In this document: one piece after another, positions 8,955 to 62,007 of the stretch
Layout: the number at the start of each line of letters is the position of its first letter
Numbering within the stretch: the stretch's first letter is position 1
Assembly: GCF_900880625.1 (NCBI RefSeq)
Contig: NZ_CAAHFB010000001.1
Span: 1,240,001 to 1,304,000 of the forward strand
Source of the DNA: Halorhabdus rudnickae
GTDB lineage: Archaea; Halobacteriota; Halobacteria; Halobacteriales; Haloarculaceae
Direction of reading: 5' to 3'
DNA: 64,000 nucleotides
The notes under the pieces: generated by a model
Told to the model about the DNA's origin: nothing
The model's input: only the letters and a program-made list of their open reading frames with translations
Database searches by the model: none
Position numbers and translations under genes: made by a program

Positions 8955-9223
8955 TCAGGCGTGATACAGGTCGAGGTCAGCTACCGTCACAGACGCGATC
9001 GCACCTAACAACTCCAGATCGGCGCCCAGCGACGTAATCTCGACGCTCGGACGGGAGACGAAACGTAGTCATCGAGGTGCCGTTCGATCCCCCTAAGTAC
9101 GACCTCGGGATTGTTGAGAGCGACGCCGCCAAGTGTGACGACCCCAGGGTTGACGATGTTGATCATGCCCCCGAGTCCCGCCGCGTTGTACCGACCGATG
9201 CGTACGATAGCCGGTACCGGCAC
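8955..9223 (-). pseudogene. ROK-family sugar kinase, C-terminal remnant with frameshift
   Basis: The minus strand from 9223 encodes a stretch ending in AAGLGGMINIVNPGVVTLGG, the typical C-terminal segment of ROK kinases, followed by NNPEVVLRGIERHLDDYV. Near 9060 the frame shifts. The next frame continues with VSRPSVEITSLGADLELLG and a terminal LYHA before a stop at 8955, exactly how ROK proteins end. A stop codon sits just upstream of 9223 and the N-terminal ATPase half is absent. The remnant lies 72 bases before the SIS gene on the same strand, so it was once probably in the same operon. Confidence 0.8.
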
Positions 9224-9312
9224 CCAGATCCCGACCTAGAAGCCCCCGATGGCGGGTGAACCGCCCCGGGACGCCCGGTGTTTAAGCCGCTGCCGATCGC
9301 AGTGTCGTGGTG

Positions 9313-10326: not shown

Positions 10327-10491
10327 TACAGCCGGGCCGGACCGACAGGGTCAGCGGCTCAGTGACCGGTGGACCCCGCGAAACTCCGAGACGTATCGGT
10401 GGTGGCTGTGGGGGTCCAAGAGGGATCGGCGGTGGCTGGGACGATCCGGGAGGGGTTTTTACTCGTGGGACCCATCGGTTAGGTATCCGGA

Positions 10492-11529
10492 ATGTCGAAC
10501 GAGCAGGTCGAGTCCCACCCGAGCGACATGAATTGGTGTTACAACACCGTCCAGGACGTCTCCCGGACGTTCGCGTTGACCATCGCGGAGCTTGAGGAGC
10601 CGATGGCTGCCGAGATTTGCGTCGGCTACCTCCTCTGTCGGGTTGCCGATACCGTCGAGGACGCCACGCATATCCCACCCGCTGATCAACACGAACTGCT
10701 TACGTGTTACAGCCGGGTGCTCGACCCGGACGACCCGACGACCGTCGAGGCGTTCCGAACGGACATCGAGCCGTATATTCCCGAGAGTCCCGACGATGAC
10801 TGGACGGTCGTCGCAGAGACGCCGCGGGTCGTCGCGACGTTTCGGGACCTGCCCGAGGCCTCCCGGGCGATCATCCGGCCGTCGGTCCGGGAACTGACCG
10901 ACGGGATGGCCGAGTTCGTCGACCGCTACGCCGAGGAAGGTGGACTACGGATTCAATCGGTCGACGAACTCGAGGAGTACTGCTGGTACGTGGCGGGGAC
11001 GATCGGCTCGTTTGTCACCGAGTTACTCATCGACGATGTCCCGCCCGATCAGCGGGCCGCCTTCGCGGACAACGCGACTGCCTTTTCGCGGCTGTTGCAA
11101 CTCGTCAACGTCACCAGAGATATCGCGACGGACTACCGCGAGGAAGACAACGTCTACGTCCCGGCAGCACTGCTGGCCGAACACGGACTGACGGCTGCTG
11201 ACATCGGCGATATCGAGAACGCAGAAGCGTTCGCGCCTGTCATTACCTCACTTGCTGACCGGGCTGAGGACTATCTCGACGACACGCAAGCCTGGATCGA
11301 AACGATGCCCGAGACGCGCGGGAATACCCTGGCCGCCTGGGCGATCCCGTTCCTGCTCGGCGTCGGCACCCTCCGGGAACTCCAGGCCAGGCCGGCCGCC
11401 GTCCTGAAAGGGGACGTAAAGGTGTCCCGCCAAGAGGTTTATGCCCTGCTCGGACGGTTCGCCGACGACAGCGACCCCTCACTGTCGCGGTTGCGACAGG
11501 AAGTCCAGGCCGGGTCGCTTGCCGAGTAG
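10492..11529 (+). CDS. Squalene/phytoene synthase family protein
   Basis: 345 residues. It has DVSRTFALTI near residue 22, a first aspartate-rich motif DTVED (53-57) and a second (NVTRDIATD, around 206-214), the two prenyl-diphosphate/Mg binding sites of head-to-head prenyl synthases. DTVED is closer to squalene synthases than to the DD..D of phytoene synthases, and YVAGTIGSFVTELL also fits. It most likely condenses two farnesyl-PP to squalene, a lipid haloarchaea make. Phytoene synthesis is the alternative. Its own promoter is suggested by the TATA-like ggttttta stretch before the start. Confidence 0.87.
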   Translation: MSNEQVESHPSDMNWCYNTVQDVSRTFALTIAELEEPMAAEICVGYLLCRVADTVEDATHIPPADQHELLTCYSRVLDPDDPTTVEAFRTDIEPYIPESPDDDWTVVAETPRVVATFRDLPEASRAIIRPSVRELTDGMAEFVDRYAEEGGLRIQSVDELEEYCWYVAGTIGSFVTELLIDDVPPDQRAAFADNATAFSRLLQLVNVTRDIATDYREEDNVYVPAALLAEHGLTAADIGDIENAEAFAPVITSLADRAEDYLDDTQAWIETMPETRGNTLAAWAIPFLLGVGTLRELQARPAAVLKGDVKVSRQEVYALLGRFADDSDPSLSRLRQEVQAGSLAE

Positions 11530-12004
11530 GGAGACCAATCGTTTTTGCACAGTGGTTCGCTATATTCGGCTGGCCGATGACGAGCCCACGGGCCGAGCCG
11601 GCCTCACGACCCGGCGACGACGAGCCCTATGAGTGCCGAGGCCAGCCTTCTATGCATATAATGGAGTGAACGAATATGGGAGAATCGTACCTGCTACCTT
11701 CTGAGAGAAAACAGTTGTTAATTGAGGTCAGCTAGGGTGGCCTCTAAATGCAATACAGATTTGGCGTGCCATAGAAACATTCACAGTTGACTTACTACGG
11801 TGCAACTCGGGACAGAAAATGATGGTGCGGGGGCGATTACACAACGCGTTTCAAGATACAGAGAATAGGGTCAGCAGGCGCTCGGTCACAAAGTATCCGT
11901 CAGAAACCATTGACCGAGGACGGAACTGAAAGAAGTGAAGCACGGTTACTCATCCCCAATAGGCATTCAAATAACTTAATAACGTTTACAACTTCAGAAA
12001 TGAC
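11530..12004. other. Gene-free stretch, low-GC insert start
   Basis: No convincing gene. From about 11640 the base composition becomes AT-richer and the sequence looks unlike the flanking core genes. Near 11631 it contains one member of a short direct repeat, and near its end a TATA-like cttaataacg precedes the small gene at 12005. Confidence 0.5.
11631..11655. repeat. Left copy of a roughly 25-bp direct repeat flanking an insert
   Basis: The segment begins gagtgccgaggcca and continues to tatgc. A near copy (first 14 bases identical, then a few mismatches and a 1-base gap) lies at 12657-12681. The two copies bracket about 1 kb of AT-richer DNA with one small gene, as expected for an acquired segment. 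Confidence 0.55.
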
Positions 12005-12433
12005 GTGGTTTCCGCCTCACTCCCACTTGAGATCCACGCGATTCACCCCTCTGCAGTCTATGAGGGACGGGTTTATACACAGGATGTAGTCGTTTCTCTA
12101 GAAGATAGTACGCAGTTCGAGGTTTACGACCATGAGGTACTTCTCAACTCCAAACACGTGGGGATGACCATATCAGTCGAGTTGTTTGTTTTCTTGGCGA
12201 ATGTGGCCGAATTCGATACGAGCGAAAGCAGGGTCGTATTTGATGGCGAGGGCCAACCCGTCTTTCATGGTCGGGTGACCGAGATCGACTGTGATACCGA
12301 TAATAGTCGTGGCGTTCTGGACGTTGGTGTCGGAACAATCTTGTTTGATCCATCAGAAGCAGAGAATACTCTTGAAGTGGGTGACTGGATTCAGATTTCC
12401 CGAAATATCCGATATCTCGAAACAGTCCACTGA
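12005..12433 (+). CDS. Hypothetical protein in the AT-richer insert
   Basis: 142 residues from GTG 12005 (MVSASLPLEIHAIHP). I do not recognise a family. The protein is acidic and predicted to be rich in beta strands (QDVVVSLEDSTQFEVYDHEV, then GVGTILFDPSEAENTLEVGD), with no signal peptide and no membrane segment. The C-terminal part, which ends in a phrase about being above a threshold (TLEVGDWIQISRNIRY), resembles an OB- or beta-barrel-like domain. It stands alone between squalene/phytoene synthase and the FAD oxidoreductase, inside a segment flanked by a direct repeat, so recent acquisition is plausible. Coding status is supported by length and acidic composition only. Confidence 0.55.
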   Translation: MVSASLPLEIHAIHPSAVYEGRVYTQDVVVSLEDSTQFEVYDHEVLLNSKHVGMTISVELFVFLANVAEFDTSESRVVFDGEGQPVFHGRVTEIDCDTDNSRGVLDVGVGTILFDPSEAENTLEVGDWIQISRNIRYLETVH

Positions 12434-12656
12434 CTATTGAATCGATAACTGTGCTGAAGGCGCTCCTTGTCTCTCACACAGACGCCTAATAGAACCGAGA
12501 GAATACCACTTCGCTATCTTCGGTAAGAGACAACGACATTTTTGACTTAAAATTTGGATAACATGAAGGAAAAAGTAACAAGAGAGTGTAAGATTACGAA
12601 TTGAGGGCCGTCTATAGAGCTGCAAAATACATTCATCATTGACATATTGTGAGTCG

Positions 12657-12681
12657 AGAGTGCCGAGGCCAACTTTTATGC
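12657..12681. repeat. Right copy of the direct repeat flanking the 12-kb insert
   Basis: Starts with the same 14 bases gagtgccgaggcca as the copy at 11631 and continues aacttttatgcc. It lies about 70 bases before the likely start of the FAD oxidoreductase, so the repeat may derive from that gene's promoter region. Confidence 0.55.
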
Positions 12682-12747
12682 CAAGATGACAGGACCGTGG
12701 TCGGCACGGAGTCACCACAAGTCTCACCCGTCCGAACGACTATCTGG

Positions 12748-13800
12748 GTGTCGAACGAATCACCGCCTGTGACACGGATCGGCATCATCGGCGCTGGTGC
12801 GGCCGCGGCCGCGGCGGCCTGGGCTATCGACACCCAAACTGAGGCGACGATCACCGTCGTCGAGAAGTCGGGCGGCCTCTGTGGGCGTGCGGCGACACGC
12901 CGCCGCGGCGCGGTGACCTACGACTACGGCGCGAACTACCTCAAAGCAGAGGACGATCGCGTCGTCGACCTCGTGACCGGAACGCTGGACACCGAGGGAC
13001 TCGTCGACATCGGCGAGCCAGTGTACACCTTCGACGGCGCAGGCCAGGTCGCTGAAGGCCGAGACGCCGACGAGCACAAATGGAGCTACGAACAGGGGCT
13101 AACACAGATCGCCAAGCGACTGTTCGGGCGGACCGCGGCGACCGTCCATCGCAACACCCGGGCGACAGCCATCCATCGCAGGGGCGAAAGCTGGGAAGTT
13201 TCCGCAGGTGAGGAGCGATTCGGCCCCTTCGACATCCTATTGGTCAATCCGCCAGCACCCCAGACCGCCGCGCTGCTCGCCGACAGCACCTGGGACGATC
13301 CGCTCCGAGAAAAGCTGATCGACGCACTGGGGGCAGTCGACTTTCGGACGGTCTGGACCGCGATCGTGGGGTATCCCTTCGAGATCGATCGGCCCTACTA
13401 CGCACTGGTGAACATCGACAACGAGCACGCTATCGGCTGGATCGCTCGTGAGGAGTGCAAGCCAGGTCACGTCCCTGATGGCGAGTCGGTACTGATCATC
13501 CAGGCCAGTCACGACTGGTCGGTCACACACTACGACGACCCGCCGAGCGAAAACATCAGTCGCCTCGCGCAGATGGCCAGCGAGATTCTCGATGACGAGC
13601 GCCTGGCGACACCCGAGTGGTCGGACTGGCAGGGCTGGCGGTATGCCCAGCCAGAGACTGGCGCGCCGACGGATCTGCTCCGTGCGGCCGAAGGGCACGA
13701 TCTGTACTGTCTGGGCGACTGGACCGTCGGAACGGCCCGCCTCCACGGGGCGCTCCGCAGTGGACTCGAGACAGCCGACCGCATTCGACAGTCCCGATGA
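12748..13800 (+). CDS. FAD/NAD(P)-dependent oxidoreductase, amine-oxidase/renalase-like
   Basis: 350 residues from GTG 12748 (MSNESPPVTRIGIIGAG); GTG 12769 is an equally possible start. The dinucleotide-binding motif GIIGAGAAAAAAAW is followed by VVEKSGGLCGRAATRR, the FAD-binding start of renalase-like flavoproteins. The C-terminus has the second FAD contact YCLGDWTVGTARLHGALRSG. It is therefore a cytoplasmic flavin oxidoreductase of the NAD(P)/FAD-dependent family. Substrate unknown; proximity to squalene/phytoene synthase is interrupted by an insert and may not mean much. Confidence 0.85.
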   Translation: MSNESPPVTRIGIIGAGAAAAAAAWAIDTQTEATITVVEKSGGLCGRAATRRRGAVTYDYGANYLKAEDDRVVDLVTGTLDTEGLVDIGEPVYTFDGAGQVAEGRDADEHKWSYEQGLTQIAKRLFGRTAATVHRNTRATAIHRRGESWEVSAGEERFGPFDILLVNPPAPQTAALLADSTWDDPLREKLIDALGAVDFRTVWTAIVGYPFEIDRPYYALVNIDNEHAIGWIAREECKPGHVPDGESVLIIQASHDWSVTHYDDPPSENISRLAQMASEILDDERLATPEWSDWQGWRYAQPETGAPTDLLRAAEGHDLYCLGDWTVGTARLHGALRSGLETADRIRQSR

Positions 13801-13844
13801 GGGGGCGACAGGCCGAGCGGGGAGTCAATCCGCCAATGCGCTGA

Positions 13845-14135
13845 TCAGTCCGCCAGTGCGGCGAGGTGCTCGCGGGCTTCCGCACGAGTCATGCCCCGAA
13901 CCCCACAGGTACACGAAAACAGTTCTGGCTCGTGCGGTTCATCGACCTGCGTGCGATCGATGCGCCTGAGACTGTCATCGTCGGCATCGTATTCGAAGGA
14001 ATACCGATAGCTCACCTGCGTAATCCCCTCTATCTGGTGAGTCGCGTCTGGGTCGGGGTTCGCGATGGCAGCGGCGTGTTCGTCCTGCATCGAGTCTTTC
14101 CATTCCTCGAGCGTACGCTCGGGGTTGTCGGGCAT
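13845..14135 (-). CDS. Small conserved-looking acidic protein with CxC motif
   Basis: 96 residues from ATG 14135 (MPDNPERTLEEWKDSMQDEH). The upstream extension of the open frame to 14324 is basic and rejected. The C-terminal part has FSCTCGVRGMTRAEAREHLA, a Cys-x-Cys followed by a helix, which could bind a metal with a partner. The protein is acidic and reads like a typical small haloarchaeal gene. No family recognised. It is divergent from the CNNM/CorC gene, with its start 146 bases from that start. Confidence 0.7.
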   Translation of the reverse strand: MPDNPERTLEEWKDSMQDEHAAAIANPDPDATHQIEGITQVSYRYSFEYDADDDSLRRIDRTQVDEPHEPELFSCTCGVRGMTRAEAREHLAALAD

Positions 14136-14281
14136 ACCTGCGGTTTGGTGGCCACCGGCAACAGCGTGTCGGCACGAGTTGGGGTTACGGCCGGCCGAAA
14201 AATAGGGCCGCAGTCGACCTTTTTTGTGGCTGGCCCGAAAGAAGCCGGCATGCACAAGACATTCGCGTCCGGGGGTCACCG

Positions 14282-15604
14282 ATGGTAGATCTCGTTTCGT
14301 CGCTCGGTGGTTTCTTCGTCGCACTCGTCCTCGTCGCGTTGAACGGGTTCTTCGTCGCCGCGGAGTTCGCTTTCGTCCGGGTCCGCTCGACGTCGGTCGA
14401 ACAACTCGCCGAGGAAGGGCGGGCGGGATCGAAGACGCTGCAGGACATAATATCGAATCTCGACGACTACCTTGCGGTCACACAACTGGGGATCACGCTC
14501 GCCTCGCTGGGGCTCGGGTGGGTCGGCGAACCTGCAGTCGCGTCGCTCATCGAGCCCGTCCTGGATCCGGTCCTCCCGGCGGGACTGATCCATCTCGTGG
14601 CCTTCGCGGTCGGCTTTGGCTTCATCACGTTCCTGCACGTCGTCTTCGGCGAACTCGCGCCGAAGACGATCGCGATCGCTCGGGCCCAGCACCTCTCGCT
14701 GTTCGTCGCGCCACCGATGAAGCTCTTCTATTACGTATTCTACCCGGGGCTGGTCGTCTTCAACGGAACGGCAAACGCGTTCACCCGGCTGCTCGGCGTC
14801 CCGCCGGCCTCCGAGACGGACGAGACCCTCGAGGAGCGCGAGATCCGGCGGGTCCTGGCGCGGTCCGGCGAGGAGGGTCACGTCGACACGGCGGAAGTCG
14901 AGATGATCGAGGGTGTCTTCGACCTCGACGACGTCGTCGTCAGAGAGGTCATGGTTCCGCGACCGGACGTGGTGAGCGTCCCGCCCGACGCCACACCGTC
15001 GACGCTCCAAGCAGTCGTCCGCGAGTCCGGCCACACGCGCTATCCGGTCGTCAAGCCAGACGACGATCAGGTCGTCGGGTTCGTCGACGTCAAGGACGTG
15101 CTGGGGGCGATCGACGGAGACGAAGAGGGCGTCACGGCCGAGAACCTGGCCCGCGACCTCCTCGTCGTCCCGGAGACGACGGCGGTCAGCGATCTCCTGT
15201 TGCAGTTCCGCGAGGGGGGCCAGCAGATGGCCGCGGTGATCGACGAGTGGGGAGCCTTCGAGGGACTCGCCACCGTCGAGGACGTCGTCGAAGCGGTCGT
15301 CGGGGACCTGCGCGACGGGTTCGACGAGCAAGGACCCTCGATCACCCAGCGCGAGGACGGCTACGACGTCGACGGAGGTGTAGCGCTCTCGACGGTCAAC
15401 GACGCCCTCGACACCGACTTCACCCACGAAGGGGTCGAGACGATCGGCGGGCTGGTTCTGACTCGTCTCGGGCGCGCACCCGAGACCGGCGACCAGGTTG
15501 AGGTCGACGGGCACACCATCGAGGTGACGGACGTAGAGGGAGCACGAATCGCGGCGCTCCGGGTCACCGAGCGTGACACTGACGACGACGAGGTGGACGA
15601 GTGA
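14282..15604 (+). CDS. CNNM/CorC (hemolysin C-like) membrane protein with CBS domains
   Basis: 440 residues. Residues about 1-190 form a DUF21 (CNNM) transmembrane domain with NGFFVAAEFAFVRVRSTS and ITLASLGLGWVGEPAV. A tandem CBS pair follows (about 210-335, VMVPRPDVVSVPPDATPS to LATVEDVVEAVVGDL). A CorC/HlyC domain ends the protein (about 345-430, LSTVNDALDTDF). Members are linked to magnesium or other cation export. The long open frame on the other strand across this gene is a shadow of its GC bias. Strong family call; transported ion inferred. Confidence 0.93.
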   Translation: MVDLVSSLGGFFVALVLVALNGFFVAAEFAFVRVRSTSVEQLAEEGRAGSKTLQDIISNLDDYLAVTQLGITLASLGLGWVGEPAVASLIEPVLDPVLPAGLIHLVAFAVGFGFITFLHVVFGELAPKTIAIARAQHLSLFVAPPMKLFYYVFYPGLVVFNGTANAFTRLLGVPPASETDETLEEREIRRVLARSGEEGHVDTAEVEMIEGVFDLDDVVVREVMVPRPDVVSVPPDATPSTLQAVVRESGHTRYPVVKPDDDQVVGFVDVKDVLGAIDGDEEGVTAENLARDLLVVPETTAVSDLLLQFREGGQQMAAVIDEWGAFEGLATVEDVVEAVVGDLRDGFDEQGPSITQREDGYDVDGGVALSTVNDALDTDFTHEGVETIGGLVLTRLGRAPETGDQVEVDGHTIEVTDVEGARIAALRVTERDTDDDEVDE

Positions 15605-15658
15605 CTGCCCGGACGAGCGACCGCCGCACTTGATAGGCTCCGGTCACGTATCGCGTCT

Positions 15659-16135
15659 ATGGATGTCATCGCCGTCGCCGCGGTCGCCGAGAACGGTATC
15701 ATCGGTGACGGTTCCACCCTACCCTGGCACCGCCCCCAAGAGGTCAAACGGTACCGCGAACGCGTCGCCGGCGAGACCGTCGCCATCGGTCGCCGGACCT
15801 TCGAGATGTTCGACGATCCCCCGGGCGCACACCGGATCGTCCTGAGCCGGACGGACCAAGAGTACGACGATCCGCGCGTGAGTCACGCGGGCGGCGTCGA
15901 GGAGGCGATCGAACGGGCTCGCTCGGCGGGCGAGCCGGTTCTCTACGTCCTCGGTGGCGCGGCGATCTACGAGGCCTTCCTCCCGTACTACGACCGCATG
16001 CTCCTGAGCCGGATCGACGGTGAGTACGACGGCGACGCCACGTTCCCGGATTTCGAGGAGAGCGAGTGGGAAATCGTCGACGAACGGCGGTTCGACGGGT
16101 ATACGCTCGAAACGTGGGGCCGCCGGCAACGGTAA
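15659..16135 (+). CDS. folA: Dihydrofolate reductase
   Basis: 158 residues, typical DHFR length. Signature elements are IAVAAVAENGIIGDGSTLPW (substrate and cofactor N-terminus), VAIGRRTFEMF, and YVLGGAAIYEAFLPYYDRM (NADPH-binding GG and helix). It reduces dihydrofolate to tetrahydrofolate for thymidylate and purine synthesis. It starts 55 bases after the CNNM gene and could be cotranscribed with it, though a TATA-like ttgatagg lies 30 bases before the start. Confidence 0.95.
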   Translation: MDVIAVAAVAENGIIGDGSTLPWHRPQEVKRYRERVAGETVAIGRRTFEMFDDPPGAHRIVLSRTDQEYDDPRVSHAGGVEEAIERARSAGEPVLYVLGGAAIYEAFLPYYDRMLLSRIDGEYDGDATFPDFEESEWEIVDERRFDGYTLETWGRRQR

Positions 16136-16424
16136 CTGCGGCCGTTGGTCGGACACGCCACCAGGTGCCACCACTCGGAACCCGACGATTGCCGTCTTGC
16201 CAATATCCCTCGGGCGGAAGCATCACTGGGCACCGACTGGTGTGCTGTCCGCGGCAGGAGGGGACAGCCACTTCGTGTCCGGCCCGGAGGAGCCGTGGCG
16301 ATCTCGACGAGACCGGGGTCGATAAATAGCCACCCAAGTTGCGGTGGGACAGCCCGAACTCTTCGGTGGCCCGGATAGGGTCCCGGCCGCCACGGTGATT
16401 AGGCCTGGCCCGTGATGGTGTCGT

Positions 16425-16853
16425 ATGGCCCCGTCACACGTCCTCGTCCCGCTCGATGGGTCGCCGATGGCCGAGGCAGCACTGACTCACGCACTCGAGA
16501 CCTTCGAGTGTCGGGTGACAGTGTTGAACGTCGTCACGTCGATCGACGCCGGGATGAGCGAAGGCAACCTCGTCGACGTTGCTCCGGAAGAGTCGACCGC
16601 CCGGGAGCGAGCTGAGGAAGTGATCGACGACGCCACGGCCCAGGCCGAGGCCGCGGATCGGGAGATCGAGACAGTCGTCCGGACCGGCGATCCCGCCGAC
16701 GTGATCCATGCGTTCGTCACGGAGCACGACGTCGACCACGTCGTCATGGGAAGTCACGGCGGCGACGCTGGGCGGATTGCCCGGCGGTTGTTGGGGACCG
16801 TCGCGACGGCCGTCGTCGGTGAGGTTCCCGTCCCCGTCACCGTGGTCCGATGA
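16425..16853 (+). CDS. Universal stress protein UspA family
   Basis: 142 residues, one Usp domain. It begins HVLVPLDGSPMAEAALTHAL and carries the ATP-binding signature VMGSHGGDAGRIARRLLGTV near the C-terminus with a final VPVPVTVVR strand. It is convergent with the phosphate transporter gene (60 bases apart). The preceding 289 bases hold no gene that I can support. Role is a general stress-linked nucleotide-binding protein. Confidence 0.93.
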   Translation: MAPSHVLVPLDGSPMAEAALTHALETFECRVTVLNVVTSIDAGMSEGNLVDVAPEESTARERAEEVIDDATAQAEAADREIETVVRTGDPADVIHAFVTEHDVDHVVMGSHGGDAGRIARRLLGTVATAVVGEVPVPVTVVR

Positions 16854-16912
16854 GTCAGTGCCGTCGCTGTTGCCCATCGCTGACGGGAAGTCGACACCGG
16901 CCGTCCCGGTGA

Positions 16913-18088
16913 CTACCACCAAAACTGGAACAATAGCGCAAACGTCCCGTACGCGCCGATCGTCGACAGCAACGGGACCACGTTCTGCATGACGATCACA
17001 CGGCCAGTCGTCGCGGGATCGAAGAGATCGGCCGCCGACGGGATTTCCGCCGGTTCCTCCTCGCCGATCTCGGGTACCTCCTCGCCGGGATCCTCGGCGG
17101 CCAGCGCCCCGACAGAGACGTTTGGTGACTCCTCGCCGCGGACCACCTCGGGGAGAGCGGTCGTCCGAGTCGCCCGCCCCCAGCCCAGCCCGACGATCGA
17201 GGTCGTCGCGATGATGACGAAGCTCGCGGGGATGCCGATGATCGAGAGGCCGATGACGATCGTCGAGGAGATGATCGCGACGACGATCGCCGCTGTCAGC
17301 GGCAGGTCGGTGATGTCGTTGCCCAGCGTGTCCAGCGTCCGTCGAGCGATCGTGAACGCGCCGACGGCAACCGCCCCACAGCCAAGCAGAATCATCATGT
17401 TGATGTCGGCGCCCGCACCCACGAGCGGGGCGATCGCGTTGGCAATGTTCGAGGTCCCCGAGGAGAAGGCCATCAGACAACCGATCGCGATGACGACGAC
17501 GCCGCCGATCACCTCCCGACGTGTCGTGTTCGGCCCGGCGACGGGTCGCGGAATCACGCCCGAGTGATCGATCCGAAACAGGGCACCCTCAGTGGTCGTG
17601 ATCGCAACCAATTCGTTGATTCGCGGGTAGAGGTACCGGCCGATCATTCCCGAGATCCAGAAGCCGACGATCGGCGCGACGATCCACCAGATCGCGATCC
17701 CGCCCATCACGGCCCAATCTAGCGTCCCCGTTGCGACGCCGAGTCCGCCCAGCGCGCCGACGGCGGTCATCGACGTCGAGGCCGGGACGCCGTAGTAGTT
17801 GCCCAGGAACAGCGCCCCGCCGATGAAAAAGAGGACCACGATGCTCGATTCCATTGTCAAGACGGTCGCGTCGGTGAACAGCTCGCTACCGAGCGTGTCG
17901 ACGACGCGGCGCCCGATCGTCCAGGCACCCACGAAAAAGAACACGGCCATCAGCCCGGCTGCGACGGTCTTGGAGATGGCATCGGCCCCAACCGCCGGCC
18001 CGAACGCCGGCCCGGTGGTCGCACCACCGATATTGAACCCAACGAACAACGCAACGACGATGCCGACGAGGAGGAGCACTTCGACCAT
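16913..18088 (-). CDS. PiT-family inorganic phosphate transporter
   Basis: 391 residues with about ten hydrophobic segments. The second half carries the PiT signature FSSGTSNIANAIAPLVGA, while the first-half copy is weaker (VGFNIGGATTGPAFGPAVGA). A hydrophilic acidic loop rich in Glu/Pro (about residues 315-365) precedes the last membrane segments. PiT proteins import phosphate with a cation. The companion PhoU-like/DUF47 regulator, often adjacent, is not next to it here. A UspA gene lies convergently downstream. Confidence 0.88.
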   Translation of the reverse strand: MVEVLLLVGIVVALFVGFNIGGATTGPAFGPAVGADAISKTVAAGLMAVFFFVGAWTIGRRVVDTLGSELFTDATVLTMESSIVVLFFIGGALFLGNYYGVPASTSMTAVGALGGLGVATGTLDWAVMGGIAIWWIVAPIVGFWISGMIGRYLYPRINELVAITTTEGALFRIDHSGVIPRPVAGPNTTRREVIGGVVVIAIGCLMAFSSGTSNIANAIAPLVGAGADINMMILLGCGAVAVGAFTIARRTLDTLGNDITDLPLTAAIVVAIISSTIVIGLSIIGIPASFVIIATTSIVGLGWGRATRTTALPEVVRGEESPNVSVGALAAEDPGEEVPEIGEEEPAEIPSAADLFDPATTGRVIVMQNVVPLLSTIGAYGTFALLFQFWW

Positions 18089-18265
18089 ACAGTAACGAAC
18101 CGTCGAAGTGGCTTAAGCGTGCGTTATCAGTCGCGGATGAAGCGTTCGATCCCAATCCAGTCGGAAGCGAGCGACTGCGAACGGAGGGTTATTCCTATCG
18201 CTGGTCCTACTGTGGCGTATGAATCACGACAGCAACCGGCTTGTCCACGCTATCGGAGGTCACCG

Positions 18266-18844
18266 ATGAAGCCGTCTCGCGTCGATTTCCTCGTCGATCT
18301 GGCTTACGGGACACTGATCTTTGTCTCGATCGGCATCATCTTCGTCGCCGAGACGAGCGTCGGCGTCGCGTTCGGACTAGGTGCGCTGGTAGCTTATGTC
18401 ATCCACATTGGCTGGAAGATGGGGCGGTTCGATCCCGACTGGATGACTCGCGAGATGGCCCAACGCGTCGAGGAAACGGTCAGCGAGACGGTCAGCGAGG
18501 AAGTCGAGAAAACCGTCGGTGACACTGTCAGCGAGGAAGTCGAACAGACGGTCAGCGACACCATGAGTGAAGAAGTCGAACAGACAGTCGAGGCAGCCGT
18601 CCACGACGAGGTCGAAGAGACAGTCAGCGAAACAGTCAGCGAGGAGGTCGATCGCGTCGAGGAAACAGTCAGCGAAGAGGTCGAAAAAACCGTCGAAGAA
18701 ACCGTCTCCAAGGAGGTCGACGAGGTGGCCGAACAGGTCGGCGAGACTGTCAGCGAAGAAGTCAGCGAGAAAGTGGAAGACACCGTCAGCGAAGAAGTCG
18801 AAAAGACAGTCAGCAAAGAGATTGGCGACGACGAGGACGCGTAG
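18266..18844 (+). CDS. Membrane-anchored protein with a 12-residue tandem repeat
   Basis: 192 residues from ATG 18266, chosen because an exact ggaggt ribosome binding site lies at 18255-18260. Residues about 8-50 form two hydrophobic segments (LAYGTLIFVSIGIIFVAE, then VGVAFGLGALVAYVIHIGW). From about residue 70 onward the protein is nearly all a repeat of the type TVSEEVEKTVGD, very acidic and with Val at every fourth position. The result should be a membrane hairpin with a long helical stalk. No enzyme domain is present. Function unknown. It is divergent from the PiT transporter gene. Confidence 0.8.
   Translation: MKPSRVDFLVDLAYGTLIFVSIGIIFVAETSVGVAFGLGALVAYVIHIGWKMGRFDPDWMTREMAQRVEETVSETVSEEVEKTVGDTVSEEVEQTVSDTMSEEVEQTVEAAVHDEVEETVSETVSEEVDRVEETVSEEVEKTVEETVSKEVDEVAEQVGETVSEEVSEKVEDTVSEEVEKTVSKEIGDDEDA
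18475..18822 (+). repeat. 36-bp coding tandem repeat (12-residue units)
   Basis: About ten imperfect units of 12 residues, consensus T-V-S-E-E-V-E-x-T-V-x-D/E; single units are 11 or 15 long. DNA units share agtcagcgaggaagtcga-like cores. The repeat fills the C-terminal two thirds of the membrane protein at 18266. Confidence 0.85.
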
Positions 18845-32672: not shown

Positions 32673-33200
32673 TCAATGATCCGGTGAAGCCCGATTGTAG
32701 GTGAGCTCTATCGCGGTTCGCTCTAATTGCAACTGACAAACGTACACCAGCCTCTTGTCTGGATTTGTGGGTTGAGATAGTCCAGTCGTCCTTTCAGGAG
32801 TTTTTTGCTCGGCAGCTAATTGTATTGCTCGACGTTGATCTCCTTTGAGCTTAGAAGATCCGGTCTTCGCCTCGATAAAGATACGTCGCCTGACATCGTA
32901 GTCTGGTAGCGTGGCCTCGAAGCTGAAATCAGGCTCCCATGTGACTTCTTTATCGTTGTCATCATCCAGAAAACACAATCTTTGGACAACGCTCGGGCCT
33001 TTCACATGTGAAATCCAGATTCTGGTATCAGCGTTCTCGATTTCAGTATCGGCGAGAAGTGAGGGGGTTTGTCTGATTTGACTTTTGAGGTAAATCCCAC
33101 TCAGAAATTCTCCGAACATCCCCTTCTCTTTGTTCGGGAAATGGTCGATGTCTTCTATAGTGATACGCTGGGTGGAAGAATTCTCGTGATCGAACTCCAT
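32673..33200 (-). CDS. PD-(D/E)XK nuclease-like hypothetical protein
   Basis: 175 residues. The likely nuclease core is Glu31 in MFGEFLSGIYL, Asp91 in WEPDFSFEATL and Glu110-x-Lys112 in IFIEAKTGSSK, followed by a helix with DQRRAIQLAAEQ. This E / D / ExK order is the hallmark of the PD-(D/E)XK fold used by restriction and repair nucleases. No specificity or methyltransferase partner lies next to it. It is a solitary accessory gene between the tRNA-linked debris and a Fic gene. Activity is inferred from the motif alone. Confidence 0.6.
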   Translation of the reverse strand: MEFDHENSSTQRITIEDIDHFPNKEKGMFGEFLSGIYLKSQIRQTPSLLADTEIENADTRIWISHVKGPSVVQRLCFLDDDNDKEVTWEPDFSFEATLPDYDVRRRIFIEAKTGSSKLKGDQRRAIQLAAEQKTPERTTGLSQPTNPDKRLVYVCQLQLERTAIELTYNRASPDH

Positions 33201-44311: not shown

Positions 44312-45646
44312 TCAGACCGGCTCGCCGAGCATCTCGGCGAGGTCCTCTTCGGGGTCACCGATCGCCTGGAGACCGAACTCGTCGTTGAGGAGCTCGACAA
44401 CGTCATCGGTGAGCCACTCGGGAATCGTCGGGCCGATACGGACGTTCTGGATGCCCAGATCGAACAGCCCGAGCAGGACGGCGACGGCCTTCTGCTCGAA
44501 CCACGAGAGGACGATGCTCACGGGCAGGTCGTTGACGCCGCAGTCGAAGGCCTCCGCAAGCGCCTGGGCGATCTTGACCGTCGAAATGGAGTTGTTACAC
44601 TGCCCCAGGTCGATAAAGCGGGGGATGTCCGTGCCGGGGACGGTACCGTACTCGAGATCGTTGAAGCGGAACTTGCCGCAGCCGGTCGTCAGGACCACGC
44701 AATCGTCGGGAACCGACTTTGCGAGTTCGCGGTAGTACGACCGGCCGTCCGTGGGTCCGTCACAGCCCGCGATGACGAAGAAGTGCCGGAGTTTGCCCGC
44801 TTCGACGGCCTCGACGATCTCCGGGGCCAGGTCGAGGACGGTCTCGTGGTAGAAGCCCGTCGAGAGCGTTTCATCGCTGTTCCACTCCTCGGCGGCCGGC
44901 TCAGGTAGCTCCTTGGCCTGTTCGATGACCGGCGCAAAGTCGCCGTCCTCGATATGGGTGGCCCCCTCCAGACCGGCGACGGTCGTCGTGTAGAACCGAT
45001 CGACGTAGTCGTCGACCGGCGGCATCAAGCAATTGGAGGTCCCGACGATGGCACCGGGGAACTCACGGAAGAGGTCACGCTGATCGAACCACGCCTCGCC
45101 GACGTTGCCCTTGAGGTGGTCGTATTTGGCGAGTTCGGGGTAGCCGTGGGCGGGCAACATCTCCGAGTGCGTGTAGACGTTGATCCCTTCGCCTTTGGTC
45201 TGTTCGAGCAGTTCCTTTAGGGCGTACAGATCGTGACCAGTAACGACAATCGACTTGCCCTCAACCTGATTTTCGGGGACCTCCGTTGGTTCGGGTCGAC
45301 CGAGCGTATCGATGTGGGCCTGATCGAGCAGTTCCATGGCGTCGATCGCAGCCGACCCCAGGTCCAGAGCCTGGTCGATCGTCTCGTCCATGTCGAAGTT
45401 GACGTTCGTCAGCGTGTGGAACAGCGTCTCGTGGACGGTCGCGTCGACGCCCTCGTCGACGTACCCCATCTCGCGGGCGTGGTGGGCGTACGCCGAGACG
45501 CCCTTCGCACCGAGGATCATCGTCTCCTGAACACTGTCCAAGTCCGGGTCCTTGCCACAGACGCCCTGGACGGTACAGCCACCGTCGAGCGTTTGCTCGC
45601 ATTGCAGGCAGTCCATCATACATCCCTGACTCGTCACGCCACCCAT
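44312..45646 (-). CDS. hcp: Hybrid-cluster protein / hydroxylamine reductase
   Basis: About 444 residues from ATG 45646 (MGGVTSQGCMMDCLQCEQT). The open frame extends to 45703, but a TATA-like box ends only 15 bases beyond that, so a start at 45646 or 45619 is more likely. Cluster ligands are seen in CLQCEQTLDGGCTVQGVCG and, further on, HSEMLPAHGYPEL, GTSNCLMPP, CDGPTDGRSYY and TTGCGKFRFN. The enzyme reduces hydroxylamine or nitric oxide, or acts in nitrosative stress. A palindromic TATA region controls it. Confidence 0.93.
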   Translation of the reverse strand: MGGVTSQGCMMDCLQCEQTLDGGCTVQGVCGKDPDLDSVQETMILGAKGVSAYAHHAREMGYVDEGVDATVHETLFHTLTNVNFDMDETIDQALDLGSAAIDAMELLDQAHIDTLGRPEPTEVPENQVEGKSIVVTGHDLYALKELLEQTKGEGINVYTHSEMLPAHGYPELAKYDHLKGNVGEAWFDQRDLFREFPGAIVGTSNCLMPPVDDYVDRFYTTTVAGLEGATHIEDGDFAPVIEQAKELPEPAAEEWNSDETLSTGFYHETVLDLAPEIVEAVEAGKLRHFFVIAGCDGPTDGRSYYRELAKSVPDDCVVLTTGCGKFRFNDLEYGTVPGTDIPRFIDLGQCNNSISTVKIAQALAEAFDCGVNDLPVSIVLSWFEQKAVAVLLGLFDLGIQNVRIGPTIPEWLTDDVVELLNDEFGLQAIGDPEEDLAEMLGEPV

Positions 45647-45702
45647 ATACTTCGTCCACCGCCTCCCCGTCCACTGGGAATCCGGACGAAGGTGTTCGGC
45701 CA

Positions 45703-45718
45703 CCCTATTTATATAGGG
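45703..45718 (-). promoter_or_regulatory. Hcp promoter with palindromic TATA region
   Basis: The bases ccctatttatataggg contain a TATA box inside an imperfect palindrome (ccctat/ataggg). The position, about 60-75 bases before the likely hcp start, fits a promoter with a short leader. An operator that overlaps the TATA box would allow repression by blocking TBP, as expected for a stress-induced gene. Confidence 0.5.
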
Positions 45719-45864
45719 ATTCTGAACGTCGAATTTCCTAAGCAGTAGCGATCCAAACGTACAAAACGATGATCGATTGTGTTAAATAATGTTGTTTCTA
45801 TGGTTCAACCGAGGTCAGCGGGTGGTCCACTCGGCAGTCAGTCAGGATCGTATCGTATCGTATT

Positions 45865-46082
45865 GGTAGTGTTCAGATAAGGATCCAACCAGAGTGAGAC
45901 TACTCTGAAAGCCCTCGCCAGTTTCAGTCCCGCGCCTCGCTGCGCGCTTCGGCCGCGTTGCGGCCTGCAGTGCTTACGTCGTCGGGGTTCCCGAAACTGG
46001 CTCGCCCTTTCACTCCACCAGGATTCGGCTGATTAGCGGGGAGAAACAGATTCTCTGATCGGTACTTATCTGAACACCGCCA
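45865..46082. mobile_element. 218-bp MITE with 17-bp terminal inverted repeats
   Basis: Left end ggtagtgttcagataag (45865-45881) is mirrored by the right end cttatctgaacaccgcc (46066-46082), which reverses to ggcggtgttcagataag, 15 of 17 matches. Both sides carry the exact 8-base duplication atcgtatt (45857-45864 and 46083-46090). No protein is encoded. It is a non-autonomous element mobilised by a full-length insertion sequence elsewhere. Eight-base target duplication fits IS1595-type elements, of which a remnant lies at 59.1 kb, but the parent is not proved. Confidence 0.92.
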
Positions 46083-46103
46083 TCGTATTTGACACTATTG
46101 CTT

Positions 46104-46113
46104 TTATTATCAC
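46104..46113 (+). promoter_or_regulatory. TATA-like box of the KwaB-like operon
   Basis: cttttattat sits about 30 bases upstream of the ATG at 46139, placing the transcript start near the start codon, as in leaderless archaeal mRNAs. It begins only 14 bases after the MITE target duplication, so the MITE may have altered the operon's promoter. Confidence 0.5.
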
Positions 46114-46138
46114 TCGCAAAAGTGCGATTATTATAAGG

Positions 46139-46831
46139 ATGGCTAACATTACAATCCCTCTACTCAGCGCAATTATCGGAGGCCTTTCTGGCGGACTTGT
46201 TTTTTCTTTTATACAGAGCTGGGCATGGCGGTGGTATACGAAGCCGAAGTTAACAATTGATGCATCAGCAGCAACTGCTTTCGAAACAAATGACGAAGGA
46301 GAGATCTCTGCTCGGGTATTTCGAGTCCCGATTCAAAACCATGGCCGGTCCTCGGCTGAAAACTGTAAACCAGAATTGCGGATGACTGGAAATTTAGATG
46401 GGAATGAATACGTGATAAACACTCAACTTCACTGGTATGAGGATGAGAATCCAAGTAGAATAACGATTAATTCCGGTGAACGAGCAAAGTACAATCTTCT
46501 TCGGGTGATGACAGAAGAAACAGATGATTATATTACAGTTGACCCTACGTTTATTGTTCAGTTTGCTGGCCCCGACGGATGGGGTGGAGAAGATAGCATC
46601 GTAAAGTGGGAATATGATGACGATACTGGCCGTGCAACAAATGTATCCGTTGGGTCCGATCTTGAACGAGATACTTTTCAAGAGATTTCGTGGGAGTATG
46701 CTGAAATTATTGTTACTGCTGGGAATACTGACAAGATCGAGTCAAGCATAGAACTTGATCTAGGAGAAGAACGAGGGATGGTAGGGATGGAGGTGATGTT
46801 CAACGAAGGCGAATATTCATCAGAGCAATGA
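46139..46831 (+). CDS. One-TM protein with cytoplasmic beta-sandwich-like domain, partner of the KwaB-like gene
   Basis: 230 residues. A single hydrophobic segment (about 5-28, IPLLSAIIGGLSGGLVFSF) is followed by WRWYTKPK, so by the positive-inside rule the rest lies in the cytoplasm. The remaining 200 residues are beta-rich and acidic (RVFRVPIQNHGRSSAENC, EYVINTQLHWYEDENPSR, EYAEIIVTAGNTDK), like an Ig-like fold. No family recognised. Low GC and codon choice differ sharply from neighbours. The KwaB-like gene starts 46 bases later. It takes the place of KwaA, a multi-TM protein, so its role as membrane sensor is inferred. Confidence 0.75.
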   Translation: MANITIPLLSAIIGGLSGGLVFSFIQSWAWRWYTKPKLTIDASAATAFETNDEGEISARVFRVPIQNHGRSSAENCKPELRMTGNLDGNEYVINTQLHWYEDENPSRITINSGERAKYNLLRVMTEETDDYITVDPTFIVQFAGPDGWGGEDSIVKWEYDDDTGRATNVSVGSDLERDTFQEISWEYAEIIVTAGNTDKIESSIELDLGEERGMVGMEVMFNEGEYSSEQ

Positions 46832-46877
46832 GTTAGTTCTTTATTGTTACAGTAATGAACACAAAGAGAAGATACGA

Positions 46878-47867
46878 ATGACAATTGATCAATTCCGGGA
46901 AGCAGTGAATCTATTGGAATCAAATCAGGAATTAGATCGGGACTATATATTGGGTGTAGAAGTCCCTACGACCGACTCTATTTTAGCAGAGCGCAATCTT
47001 ACAGCATTGGAATACCACGAAATTTCTCTTGATCCCGAGGTTCGCCAGAAGATACAATCAATCGCATCTTCTAGGGCTCAAAGTTACCTCACCGATGTTG
47101 ATGATGGGAGTCGAGATTATAGGGAATATGATATAACTAATACAGAACAAGACACTGTTCCGCTCCAATATGCTGACCCAAACAGTATCGAACACTTTGA
47201 GCGATACGAACCTCTGTTGAACGAGACAAATTTCAATACAGAGTCTTATGACACTTTCTCAGACATAAGCTTCCAGTGTCTCCGAATCAGTAATGAATCG
47301 GACGAACAAGTACTTATTTTTCAAAAGTTCTCAAATCGTCAGATTTCAGGTAACACAGAAGACCTTCGTATTAGTGAGAGAGATGACCAGTATCAAGAGT
47401 TCGAAGATACCGTAATTACAATCCCAAAGAGGGTCGACTGTATACTCTATGAAGGCACGATATATGTTTTTGCTTCAAAGAAGTTTGAAGATATATTTGA
47501 TTATTTGAGCCAGTATGAGCGTCATGCAAATGATGTCCTCAGGGGAATAGACAGTTCCGAATTACGTATACATAATATGGACGAATTTGTTGATTCAATT
47601 CTTGGCGACCGGAGAGCACTACGTAAGATGAAATCAATCGAAGAGCGGGGACTCTATGATTCTCTGGACCAATCACAGGTTGAAAGTATTGTGAGTGACT
47701 ACGACCTCGGGATAGAAATACAAGCAGATGAGAGTGGAGAGTGGGGTATACATATACCAGATATGAGAAAGAAATGGGACGTAATACGACTGCTTGACGA
47801 CGATCACTTAGAATCTTCACTTACAAGTACTCAATATCAGGTATACGGCAAAGATCAGCGAGACTAA
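46878..47867 (+). CDS. DUF4868 / KwaB-like antiviral protein
   Basis: 329 residues, close to the length of KwaB. The central and C-terminal parts show the DUF4868 pattern: QVLIFQKFSNRQISG, TVITIPKRVDCILYEGTIYV and FASKKFEDIFDYLSQYERHA, then a helical tail. KwaB is the DNA-associated partner in the Kiwa anti-phage system. The N-terminus (MTIDQFREAVNLLESNQ) is less conserved. The gene is AT-rich and flanked by foreign-looking DNA. It follows the one-TM gene in the same operon. Family match is by eye; a profile search would be decisive. Confidence 0.75.
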   Translation: MTIDQFREAVNLLESNQELDRDYILGVEVPTTDSILAERNLTALEYHEISLDPEVRQKIQSIASSRAQSYLTDVDDGSRDYREYDITNTEQDTVPLQYADPNSIEHFERYEPLLNETNFNTESYDTFSDISFQCLRISNESDEQVLIFQKFSNRQISGNTEDLRISERDDQYQEFEDTVITIPKRVDCILYEGTIYVFASKKFEDIFDYLSQYERHANDVLRGIDSSELRIHNMDEFVDSILGDRRALRKMKSIEERGLYDSLDQSQVESIVSDYDLGIEIQADESGEWGIHIPDMRKKWDVIRLLDDDHLESSLTSTQYQVYGKDQRD

Positions 47868-48089: not shown

Positions 48090-49079
48090 CTACACTAGAT
48101 CGGCCGGCGGAGTGCCGGACAGGTCGTTCCTGTCGTGTGGGGCCTCGAAGTCCGGGTCCGGTCCCTTCGGGACGATCCGCTTGGGACTCACGTCGGGATG
48201 AGTCGTGTAGTAGTGCTCTTTGATGTGGTCCATGTCCACCGTCTCGGCGATGTCTCCTGTCTGATAGACGTCCCGCAGATACGGCCAGAGGTTGTCGTAC
48301 TCCCGGATCAGCCGATGATTGCACATGAAGTGAGTGTGGTAGACCTCGTCGAAACGCACGAGCGTGGTGAACATCGCGATGTCGGCCTCCGTCAGGCGGT
48401 CGCCCGCGAGGTAGCGCTGGTCGGCTAGTACCGAGTCCCAGTGATCCAGGGCGTCGAACAACTCCGCGACCGCCTCGTCGTAGGCCGCCTGGGAGTCGGC
48501 GAATCCGGTCCGGTAGACGCCGTTGTTGATGGGCTCGTAGATCTCCTCGATGAGCCGGTCGACTTCCTCGCGGTAACCCTCCGGGTAGAGGTCCACGTCG
48601 TTGTCGGCGACACCGTCGAATTCGGTGTCGAGCATCCGCATGATCTCGGCGGACTCGTTGTTGACGATGGTGCCTTCCTGTTTGTCCCAGAGGACAGGGA
48701 CAGTCACACGACCGGTCATGTTGGGATCGGCTTTGACGTAGACCTCACGGAGATAGTCCGCGCCGTTGACCCTATCGGGCGTACAGCCGTCCTTCTCGGG
48801 GGTGAACTGCCAGCCGTCGTCGCCGCGGTAGGGGTCGACGTAGTCGACGGTGATTGCGTCGTCCAATCCCTTCAATTTCCGCGTGATCAGTGTCCGGTGA
48901 GCCCAGGGACAGGCCCGACAGACGTAGAGATGATACCGCCCGGATTCGGGCTGGAAGTGGGCATCGGGCTCGTCCTCGATGCGATCACGGAAGGCAGTCG
49001 TCTGGCGCTCGAAGGTGCCGTCTTCGTTGGTTGTCTCGTAGGCGTCGGTTCGCCACTCGCCGTCAACGAGCATATTCAT
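48090..49079 (-). CDS. Glutathionyl-hydroquinone reductase-like / Xi-class GST
   Basis: 329 residues from ATG 49079 (MNMLVDGEWRTDAYETTNED). The catalytic Cys57 lies in CRACPWAHR, followed by TVPVLWDKQEGTIVNNESAE (thiol-binding) and the C-terminal helical GST domain (ERYLAGD-like YLAGDRLTEADIAMFTTLVR). This is the YqjG/PcpF type, which removes thiol from quinone conjugates. Haloarchaea use gamma-glutamylcysteine rather than glutathione, so that may be the co-substrate. It reads opposite to the KwaB-like operon; 47868-48089 holds AT-rich sequence but no gene. Confidence 0.9.
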   Translation of the reverse strand: MNMLVDGEWRTDAYETTNEDGTFERQTTAFRDRIEDEPDAHFQPESGRYHLYVCRACPWAHRTLITRKLKGLDDAITVDYVDPYRGDDGWQFTPEKDGCTPDRVNGADYLREVYVKADPNMTGRVTVPVLWDKQEGTIVNNESAEIMRMLDTEFDGVADNDVDLYPEGYREEVDRLIEEIYEPINNGVYRTGFADSQAAYDEAVAELFDALDHWDSVLADQRYLAGDRLTEADIAMFTTLVRFDEVYHTHFMCNHRLIREYDNLWPYLRDVYQTGDIAETVDMDHIKEHYYTTHPDVSPKRIVPKGPDPDFEAPHDRNDLSGTPPADLV

Positions 49080-49258
49080 CGTGTGTTGCCGTTGTGTCTG
49101 GACGGCCAAAAGCGTCGCAGTAACCCGCGTGTCACCGCCGGTCATTCATCCCGACATGCAGACTGGACCACCCCCGCTGTCGGAAGACGGTAGTCCGACA
49201 AGGATGGATTTTTGTACTTTCATTGATGAGTATTTAACGGGTAGGTCAGGGTGGTTAT

Positions 49259-59108: not shown

Positions 59109-59327
59109 CGACGCGACCAAGAATATATCACTGATGACGGCGTTTACATCAACCAGGTCGAGTGTCTCTGGTCACTGTTGAATCCGTGGCTGGCGAAATT
59201 CCGTGGTCTCTCCAAACCAGGATTGGAGTAGTCCGTCCGAACCTACGGGTTCGTCCGGACGCTCAACCTTGCTGGAGCACCGCTGCACGCGCTTGTTGAG
59301 TGCTTCGTCGTCAACGTGTTTCGCTAA
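59109..59327 (+). pseudogene. Transposase C-terminal remnant, IS1595-like, with in-frame stop
   Basis: From 59109 the plus frame reads RRDQEYITDDGVYINQVECL and then [20 protein letters not shown], followed by TAG at 59229-59231, and then in frame [20 protein letters not shown] ... FVVNVFR and a stop at 59325. The pattern of DDE-type IS1595 transposase C-termini (acidic Glu before LWSLL, then a Gly-rich turn) is clear. The N-terminal two thirds and both element ends are missing. Confidence 0.75.
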
Positions 59328-59344
59328 GTTGGGCAAGAGCCTAA

Positions 59345-59356
59345 GATTTTATTATG
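59345..59356 (+). promoter_or_regulatory. TATA-like box for the transducer fusion gene
   Basis: gattttattatg lies about 25-30 bases before ATG 59377, which places the transcript start at or next to the start codon. It begins 18 bases after the transposase remnant, so the remnant may have brought or created the promoter. Confidence 0.5.
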
Positions 59357-59376
59357 AAGAACGGCTTTGTGGGGTT

Positions 59377-62007
59377 ATGAAACAACTACTCGGTTTGCTG
59401 GCGGGAAACTTCAAAGATGAGCCGGGTACTACAGATGGATCAGAGATGACTGATGGGGATATAGAGATGGGAAAGACACCCTCATCAAACTTTGAAAGCG
59501 GTGGCAATGAGATTGTGACGGAAAGTGTTGAGTCGTTCGATTTAGATGGGCTGTCCAAGACGGAGGTACGAGCGGTCATCACAGAGTTGCATAATGAGCG
59601 TAATATTGCTCAGGAGCGTGTCCGCAATCTGGAGGACCGTGTTGAGGGGTTGGAGGCTGAATTGCGAGAGAAGGACCAGCGGCTTCACGACTATGAGGGT
59701 TCAGTGAATGAGTTACAGGGCGTTGTCACGGCAAATGCCGACGGTGATCTGACTCGGCGTGCTGAGATAGATTCTGATATCGACACGATTACCGACTTTG
59801 TTGCCACCTACAATGAGATGATAAAGCGGTGGAATGAGATTGCTCAGCAGTTGAAAACGGCCAGCCAGACTGTGACGGATGCGACAAAGACTGTTGAGGA
59901 CGAAATCCATGCTGTCAGCGACAAAAGCGAAGAAATCGACACATCGGTCGATGATATCGCGCGTGGTGCTGAAGAGCAGAGTGACAAGTTGGGAGAGGTG
60001 CTTGATGAGTTGGAAAGCTTATCAGCGACGATCGAAGAGGTGGCTGCATCGACAGATGAGATAGCAACGAACGCAAGCGAGACGATTGAGCGGGGTGATT
60101 CAGCACAGCGGGCAGCAAGTGACGCGCTTGCTGTGTTGGAGTCTATGGAGTCCCAGACAGATGATCTGGTGACAGAAATTGAGGGTTTGAATGAATTGAT
60201 GGGTGGGATTGAGGAGGTAATGGAGTTCATCACAGATATTGCTGAGGAGACGAATATGCTTGCGCTCAATGCGAATATCGAGGCCGCCCGTGCCGATCAA
60301 AGTGGTGATGGGTTTGCTGTCGTAGCGGACGAGATTAAGTCTCTGGCAACGGAGACGAAAGAAGCGACCGATGATATTGCAGGCTCAATCGAAGAGGTGA
60401 ACGAGCAGACACAAACAGCTGTTGAGAAGATGCATTCGACGGAGGATGCAGTTGACGACACGCGGGAGGTAGTGCAAACCGCGATTACGGAGTTGGACGA
60501 GGTTGTCGAGATGTCAACCGAGGCGAGTCAAAGTATTCAGGAGACCAGTGAGGCGATTGATCAACAGGCTTCGACAACGCAGGAAGTCGTTGCAATGGTG
60601 GACGATGTGAGTGCGGGGAGCGAAGAAACGAGTGCTGCTGCACAGACTGCGGCTGAAGCGACGGAGACTCAAACGAAATCGATCACAGATATCGTCACGG
60701 AAGTTGAAACGCTAACGGCTGAGGCAGACGGTCTTGAGGGTGCCAGTGAGCAGTTTGAGACTGGCGAACGCGTGAAGCGAGTTGTTTCGAAGACGGATAC
60801 AGAGGTTGACTTCTGGCACGCGATGGGTGGGCAGAAAGCGTTGATACTGACGGATCTCGTTCGTGAGTTTGAACAAGAGTATGGTGGAGTGCATTTCAAC
60901 CTCTCATCGATGGGGAGCTATGATGGGACTCTGACAGAAGCACTGGCGGCTGCAGAAGAAGGAGATGCGCCAGCAATCACACAGGTTAACGAGATCAGCA
61001 CTCTGAAAGCCTATGAGAGCGGGGCGTTCAAGCCGGCGGGTGAGTTGTTGCCAGCACAGACACAACACTCTCTCGTTGATTCGGTCCAGGAGTACTATAC
61101 GATTGAGGGAACACTCCAGTCTGTACCGTTCAACTCCTCAAACCCGATTTTGGTGATCAACAAAGAGCTGTTTACTCAAGCCAGGTTGGATCCAGAGAAC
61201 CCACCAGAGACGTTGAGCGAGGTCAAACGTGCGAGTGAACAGCTTGTCTCACAAGGCGTCGCAGAATTCGGGATCACATTTGCGAACTACTCGTGGTTTG
61301 TTGAGCAGTGGTTTGCTGAGGACAGTCAACAACTAGTCGATGCAGAGAATGGTCGCACTGGAACGCCGAACGAGGCGTACATAGATAGTAAGACGGGCAG
61401 AGAGTTGTTTGATTGGTGGGTGACGATGGAGCATGATGGGTTATATCAAAATCCTGGCGTCAAAGCCCGTGGCACGGCGAAAAAAGAGTTCCATGATGAA
61501 CGAGTAGCTATGTTGATCGGGTCAACGTCGTCTCTCAATTCGATTGTCAGGCGTGCCGATTTTGCTGTTGAAACGGCACCGCTTCCAGTCTTGAATGAAC
61601 GAAATGGAGTAGTTGTTGGTGGGGCTTCGTTGTGGGTTGGTGATGGACTTGCGAATGAAACTGAGTCGGTGGTGCGTGCATTCTTCGACTGGCTGTTGGA
61701 GCCTGAGCAACAGGCCCAGTGGCATCAGGAGACTGGCTACTTCCCGGTCACAACAGATGCAATCAGGCAGTTACAGACGTCAGGTTGGTTTGAAGAAAAC
61801 CCCCACTTCGTGACTGCATTCACTCAGCTTCAAGATACGATCGATAGTGCAGCAACGAATGGAGCACTCATTCAGTCGTTCCCAGAGGTGCGCTCACTCA
61901 TCGAAGAGTATCGCGCTGAGATGGCAACGCCAGCAACCGTTTCACGACAGCTCCAAGAGTTGAATAGCGAAATTGAAACACGTCTTGGATATCAAACCGA
62001 TCGTTGA
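59377..62007 (+). CDS. Cytoplasmic chemotaxis transducer fused to a C-terminal solute-binding protein
   Basis: 876 residues from ATG 59377 ([17 protein letters not shown]). Upstream codons of the frame belong to the transposase remnant. No signal peptide or membrane segment. Residues about 58-115 are coiled coil, about 113-155 HAMP-like ([20 protein letters not shown]), about 160-465 the MCP signalling hairpin with tip [20 protein letters not shown] and [19 protein letters not shown]. From residue 479 ([13 protein letters not shown]) to the end is a UgpB/MalE-type solute-binding protein ([53 protein letters not shown]). Codon use and low GC differ from neighbours. A cytoplasmic solute sensor is inferred. 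Confidence 0.88.

Follow-up and report, generated by a model that had tools for sequence, protein, structure and literature searches.

In the window, the whole 64,000-nucleotide stretch of Halorhabdus rudnickae DNA analysed here, two neighboring genes encode a protein with a single membrane segment (the one-TM protein) and a KwaB protein, and the sequence comparisons indicate that this pair is a real, intact and rare Kiwa variant with an exchanged membrane partner. The reading that we prefer, and to which somewhat better than even chances are given, is that of a two-gene variant of Kiwa, spread by horizontal transfer, in which the membrane partner of KwaB is no longer KwaA but a haloarchaeal one-TM protein. 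A sequence-only reading had already proposed a Kiwa-related operon with an unusual partner at this place, and both of its ORFs were recovered at the positions listed in Table 1.

Table 1. Coordinates of the gene pair and of its surroundings in the window.
Feature	Coordinates	Strand	Remarks
Core gene on the other flank, presumably hydroxylamine-reductase-like	44312..45703	-	
Stub of the 3′ end of the GST-like gene	45805..45837	-	duplicated gene end (LPSGPPADLG stop)
MITE	45864..46082	.	18-nt inverted ends (89%); five more genome copies (four near full length, one partial)
Two-gene cassette	46102..47867	+	DNA homology with Halobellus rufus L002:5964-7736 covers exactly this span
Upstream stretch	46102..46138	+	conserved; TATA-like TTTTATTATC ~30 nt 5′ of the ATG
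One-TM gene	46139..46831	+	intact ORF, 230 aa; N-out membrane segment, then predicted cytoplasmic domain
Intergenic gap	46832..46877	+	46 nt, conserved in part (GTTAGTTCTTTA); may hold a second promoter serving kwaB
kwaB-like gene (PF16162/DUF4868)	46878..47867	+	intact ORF, 329 aa
Gene that we take to be GST-like	48090..49145	-	3′ end borders the insertion; intact end LSGTPPADLV-stop at 48090

The assignment of the 329-aa protein to DUF4868/KwaB, made earlier from its pattern and length, held firmly, as the protein matches Pfam PF16162 (KwaB) at an E-value of 1.1e-20 and 74.9 bits, far over the cut-off of 26.3, and is also matched by the PADLOC KwaB models (best 1.5e-18, others weaker). Though the DUF4868/PF16162 domain expected of a Kiwa KwaB is present, the protein reaches 64.6 bits against the NCBIfam KwaB equivalog, which is less than the cut-off of 200. 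The solved Kiwa KwaB chains were recovered at 2e-9 by a profile built from 27 KwaB proteins with the window KwaB at its head, and a phmmer search of the PDB with the window KwaB alone returned chance matches only. By these profile matches, the protein is a distant but real KwaB. E105 and I130 were observed in the KwaBs of both the window and Halobellus rufus, with proline at these positions in 25/25 and 23/25 of the other KwaBs, respectively; the two replacements may mark a changed interface. Structure prediction of the window KwaB from a two-row alignment gave a pLDDT of 32.2, a model too poor for use.

The partner harbors one hydrophobic segment at about residues 4–27 and none further on, and hydrophobicity over the full protein confirms the single span without later ones that had been described. 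The large domain of the family is predicted to be cytoplasmic because at least two K/R residues follow the segment in 14 of the 15 family members and at most one precedes it in all 15; by this pattern, the C-terminal domain of the window protein (~190 residues) should be cytoplasmic. No family in Pfam, PADLOC or NCBIfam matched the one-TM protein over its cut-off. The CARDB profile (PF07705) matches residues 36–125 of the window protein at 13.6 bits, under the Pfam cut-off of 22.7, and weak CARDB matches were obtained for six of the 15 family members at E-values up to 0.5 (best 5e-4). An AlphaFold model shows a helix followed by ~12 strands, with an uninformative mean pLDDT of 37.5 from a two-row alignment, and the A1 profile found nothing significant in the PDB. 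The beta-rich, Ig-like domain that had been postulated is moderately supported by the weak CARDB matches in the family, with the window protein itself staying below the cut-off, and the cytoplasmic domain may have a CARDB/Ig-like fold.

The sequence-only reading had also regarded the partner as unrelated to KwaA, and this was borne out: hhalign gave a probability of 0.1% between the profile of the one-TM family (15 members) and a profile of 19 haloarchaeal KwaA proteins, and the PADLOC KwaA models left the one-TM protein unmatched, so the pair lacks the multi-span KwaA partner of Kiwa. In addition, no KwaA was found in the genome of the window with the haloarchaeal KwaA profile at E-values up to 1. 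This miss is informative because the same profile detects the KwaA of Microvirga (6.7e-28) and of Vibrio (3.5e-22); all 19 member rows of the profile match the PADLOC KwaA models, and the solved KwaA chains were recovered at 6e-14.

Among 391 genomes of the class, KwaB was present in 26, and a multi-span KwaA was located directly upstream in 23 of the 25 other KwaB loci, a count in which detection by profile is partly circular for 18 loci (the profile includes their own KwaA; independent support comes from the PADLOC models, which match every row) and in which the neighboring genes come from a simple home-made scorer, so details may be wrong. In G314 (L093), KwaB is full-length but all that is left of KwaA is a tail of ~36 residues, and a plasmid of Natrinema salinisoli (G143) bears a truncated KwaB with no partner. 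Beyond the 25 loci, KwaA was seen in G439, G516, a Halobacterium plasmid, Microvirga and Vibrio, whereas G043 and another locus of G314 have short KwaB fragments without KwaA. A one-TM remnant was looked for beside the two partnerless KwaB fragments and none was found. The second of the two decayed Kiwa traces of G314 (L143) contains a KwaB fragment that is 62% identical to the window KwaB. Among the 26 KwaB genomes, a one-TM partner beside KwaB occurs in that of the window alone.

The deduced tree of 27 KwaB proteins revealed that the window and Halobellus rufus form one clade with 100/100 support within the KwaA-partnered haloarchaeal KwaBs; the two forks that place it there have 88/82 support, and its stem is long (0.99). 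Partner exchange is the best reading because the KwaB of the pair nests among KwaA-partnered KwaBs, and, since the bacterial outgroups have KwaA, the simplest reading of the tree, held with moderate confidence, is that KwaA was lost and a one-TM partner gained. The exchange is further based on the position of the one-TM gene, which lies on the same strand directly upstream of kwaB, where the other loci carry KwaA. However, the moderate fork support and the long stem count against it, as do the presence of only two intact cases that are not independent, the 46-nt gap instead of the near-overlap usual for kwaA-kwaB, the occurrence of the one-TM family elsewhere without KwaB, the poor structure models of both proteins, and the KwaB score under the equivalog cut-off. 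Of the proposal of a Kiwa variant in archaea, the real KwaB, the absence of KwaA from the locus and the one-TM gene in its place have stood; however, many haloarchaea contain canonical KwaA-KwaB, and the variant is an exception rather than the archaeal form of Kiwa.

The same pair was detected in a second genus, in Halobellus rufus, with the one-TM protein 82% and KwaB 85% identical to those of the window. DNA homology (79.7% identity) covers exactly the cassette, that is, both genes and 37 nt upstream, with none on either side. The one-TM gene has a dN/dS of 0.12 (0.01 over its first 40 codons) and KwaB one of 0.04, ratios that are rough owing to large synonymous distances (~0.9 to 1.9), and both genes are under purifying selection. 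Since the homology ends at the cassette edges and both genes are constrained, the pair has moved and been kept as a unit. The window and Halobellus rufus are two intact cases of shared descent with one origin; G510, considered as a third case, was rejected, as its region is 100% identical to L002 and is Halobellus rufus itself. A decaying, non-functional Kiwa remnant that has lost KwaA and lies beside an unrelated gene would have parallels in the partnerless truncated KwaBs of haloarchaea (the Natrinema salinisoli plasmid and the G314 fragment), but this explanation is very improbable, as the window genes are intact and match those of Halobellus rufus end to end, and the two dN/dS values largely refute it.

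The pair was described earlier as AT-rich with its own leaderless-type promoter. The GC content of the cassette is indeed low at 41.4%, the lowest among 248 windows of equal size (mean 60.1%), and the putative promoter, a TATA-like stretch before the ATG of the one-TM gene that may serve leaderless transcription, is kept in Halobellus rufus. Read in the same way as in the window, the gap between the two genes is 56–62 nt in Halobellus. Two other stretches of deviating composition were noted: a 934-codon ORF at 59203–62007 with ~51% GC and strong GC skew within the GC-rich window, and a 175-aa ORF at 32673–33200 (minus strand) with 47% GC in a local GC dip.

The insertion is bordered by the 3′ end of the GST-like gene, and the duplicated stub of this end, in Table 1, is a likely sign of integration. 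The MITE that had been reported beside the pair is there and is repeated in the genome; it lies between the gene stub and the pair, outside the shared cassette. The two flanking genes are direct neighbors in four of six genus mates; in the other two, the core gene (44312..45703 in the window) was not seen in the fetched G079 flank, and the site is split in G269. An element of ~16 kb that encodes a phage-type integrase and a UvrD-like helicase lies at the end of the GST-like gene in G269 (L105, G269:C13:1-20000, ~2200–18500); it is also flanked by a duplicated gene end and occupies the same site as the window insertion. Because the window stub and the integrase element of G269 share this gene end, the end of the GST-like gene is likely an integration hotspot, through which the pair probably arrived.

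Members of the one-TM family were found in 18 of the 391 haloarchaeal genomes and contain a conserved core stretch N-x-G-x-x-x-A-x-N-C. None of the 19 fetched regions around other family members carries KwaB beside the one-TM gene, although some regions end at contig ends and one member is a 55-residue fragment. KwaB and a one-TM gene occur together in four genomes; in the three besides that of the window, the two genes are on separate contigs and KwaB is accompanied by a KwaA. The repeated pairing with DUF4868 genes that would mark a new variant was thus seen with the closest homologue, that of Halobellus rufus, and not in the rest of the family. These distributions bear on a second explanation, in which KwaB acts by itself or together with a host protein encoded elsewhere, and the one-TM gene is an independent gene of the defence island that travels along with it. 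It agrees with a family whose members are mostly found away from KwaB, close to other defence genes, with a TATA-like stretch before each gene, and with KwaB being reported in PMC11514479, which cites a preprint, to work against phage without KwaA. However, the cassette shared with Halobellus rufus begins and ends with the two genes and nothing more, and both have stayed constrained through the synonymous divergence given above, and we regard this explanation as somewhat unlikely.

The neighborhoods of the other one-TM genes were diverse. In two genera (L051 of G239 and L056 of G101), an NA37-like gene and a gene of 565 aa with C-terminal membrane segments lie directly upstream of the one-TM gene; Pfam was run on the G239 copies, to which the NA37-like protein of G101 is 94% identical. 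Together with the one-TM gene, these may possibly form a separate undescribed defence unit. A relation between KwaB and the NA37-like protein was looked for and none was detectable. A PLD-domain gene in G113 (L058, 3156–4496) and a 463-aa gene in G155 (L053, 104–1495) are likewise located directly upstream of a one-TM gene, in AT-rich arrangements like that of the window, and their products are possible other effectors. HmaB-like methylases were observed near one-TM genes in G239, G282 and G030, a SNF2 helicase in G030, and type I restriction enzymes in G101 and G044; a strong PADLOC match was found at five of seven loci, with neighbors hand-picked for length and no random control. Searches of plasmids, phages and viral contigs yielded no further one-TM genes, and the scan of viral contigs with the KwaB pair found nothing. 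The family might be a swappable membrane module of haloarchaeal immunity, whose cytoplasmic Ig-like domain would serve different DNA-acting effectors (KwaB here, the NA37-like pair in G239/G101, the PLD-domain protein in G113, and others); we rate this as unlikely, and, if it were true, KwaB systems would be re-triggerable by exchange of their membrane half.

In bacterial Kiwa, as described in PMC12904381, membrane KwaA tetramers hold KwaB, which binds injected phage DNA without cutting it and blocks replication and late transcription, and the way in which KwaA senses infection is described there as unknown. By analogy, in the preferred reading of an exchanged partner, the one-TM protein would span the membrane, with its beta-rich domain facing the cytoplasm, and hold or recruit KwaB at the membrane as an anchor, perhaps also as a sensor; once a virus injects its DNA, KwaB would bind it, and replication and transcription would be blocked as by bacterial KwaB. 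The interaction of the two proteins, the membrane recruitment, the sensing and the antiviral effect are all inferred. Alternatively, the one-TM protein could serve chiefly to restrain KwaB or to give immunity against it, keeping it inactive or off the host DNA, rather than as a sensor. Tethering to the membrane could sequester a DNA-binding protein, and controlled expression of KwaB is said in PMC11514479 to need KwaA; however, the two short fragments most similar to the window KwaB and a full-length KwaB from another clade have no partner, at three loci that look decayed, and we consider such a role quite improbable.

The general plan of a membrane protein with a DNA-targeting effector is shared with Zorya and SNIPE, as described in PMC12904381, and neither window protein matches the PADLOC models for the genes of these systems. 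In titles and abstracts on Kiwa (including haloarchaea), on DUF4868 and on CARDB in defence, no description of a one-TM/KwaB pair was found. The weak match to CARDB comes with a difference in location, as CARDB domains are mostly extracellular, whereas the window domain is predicted to be cytoplasmic. The PADLOC Kiwa rule requires both kwaA and kwaB models, and a detector with such a demand would overlook the window pair. Like Kiwa, the window pair is a two-gene operon (predicted from the shared strand and the short gap) with a PF16162 KwaB and the gene of a membrane protein directly upstream on the same strand. Unlike Kiwa, in which KwaA is a multi-span protein and kwaA and kwaB usually touch, the window has an unrelated one-TM partner and separated genes, and, lacking KwaA, it is not Kiwa in the strict sense. 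A natural KwaB with a changed membrane partner sets the requirements of KwaB itself apart from the contribution of KwaA, and the pair bears on whether a single membrane segment with a cytoplasmic beta domain is enough to position KwaB and trigger it.
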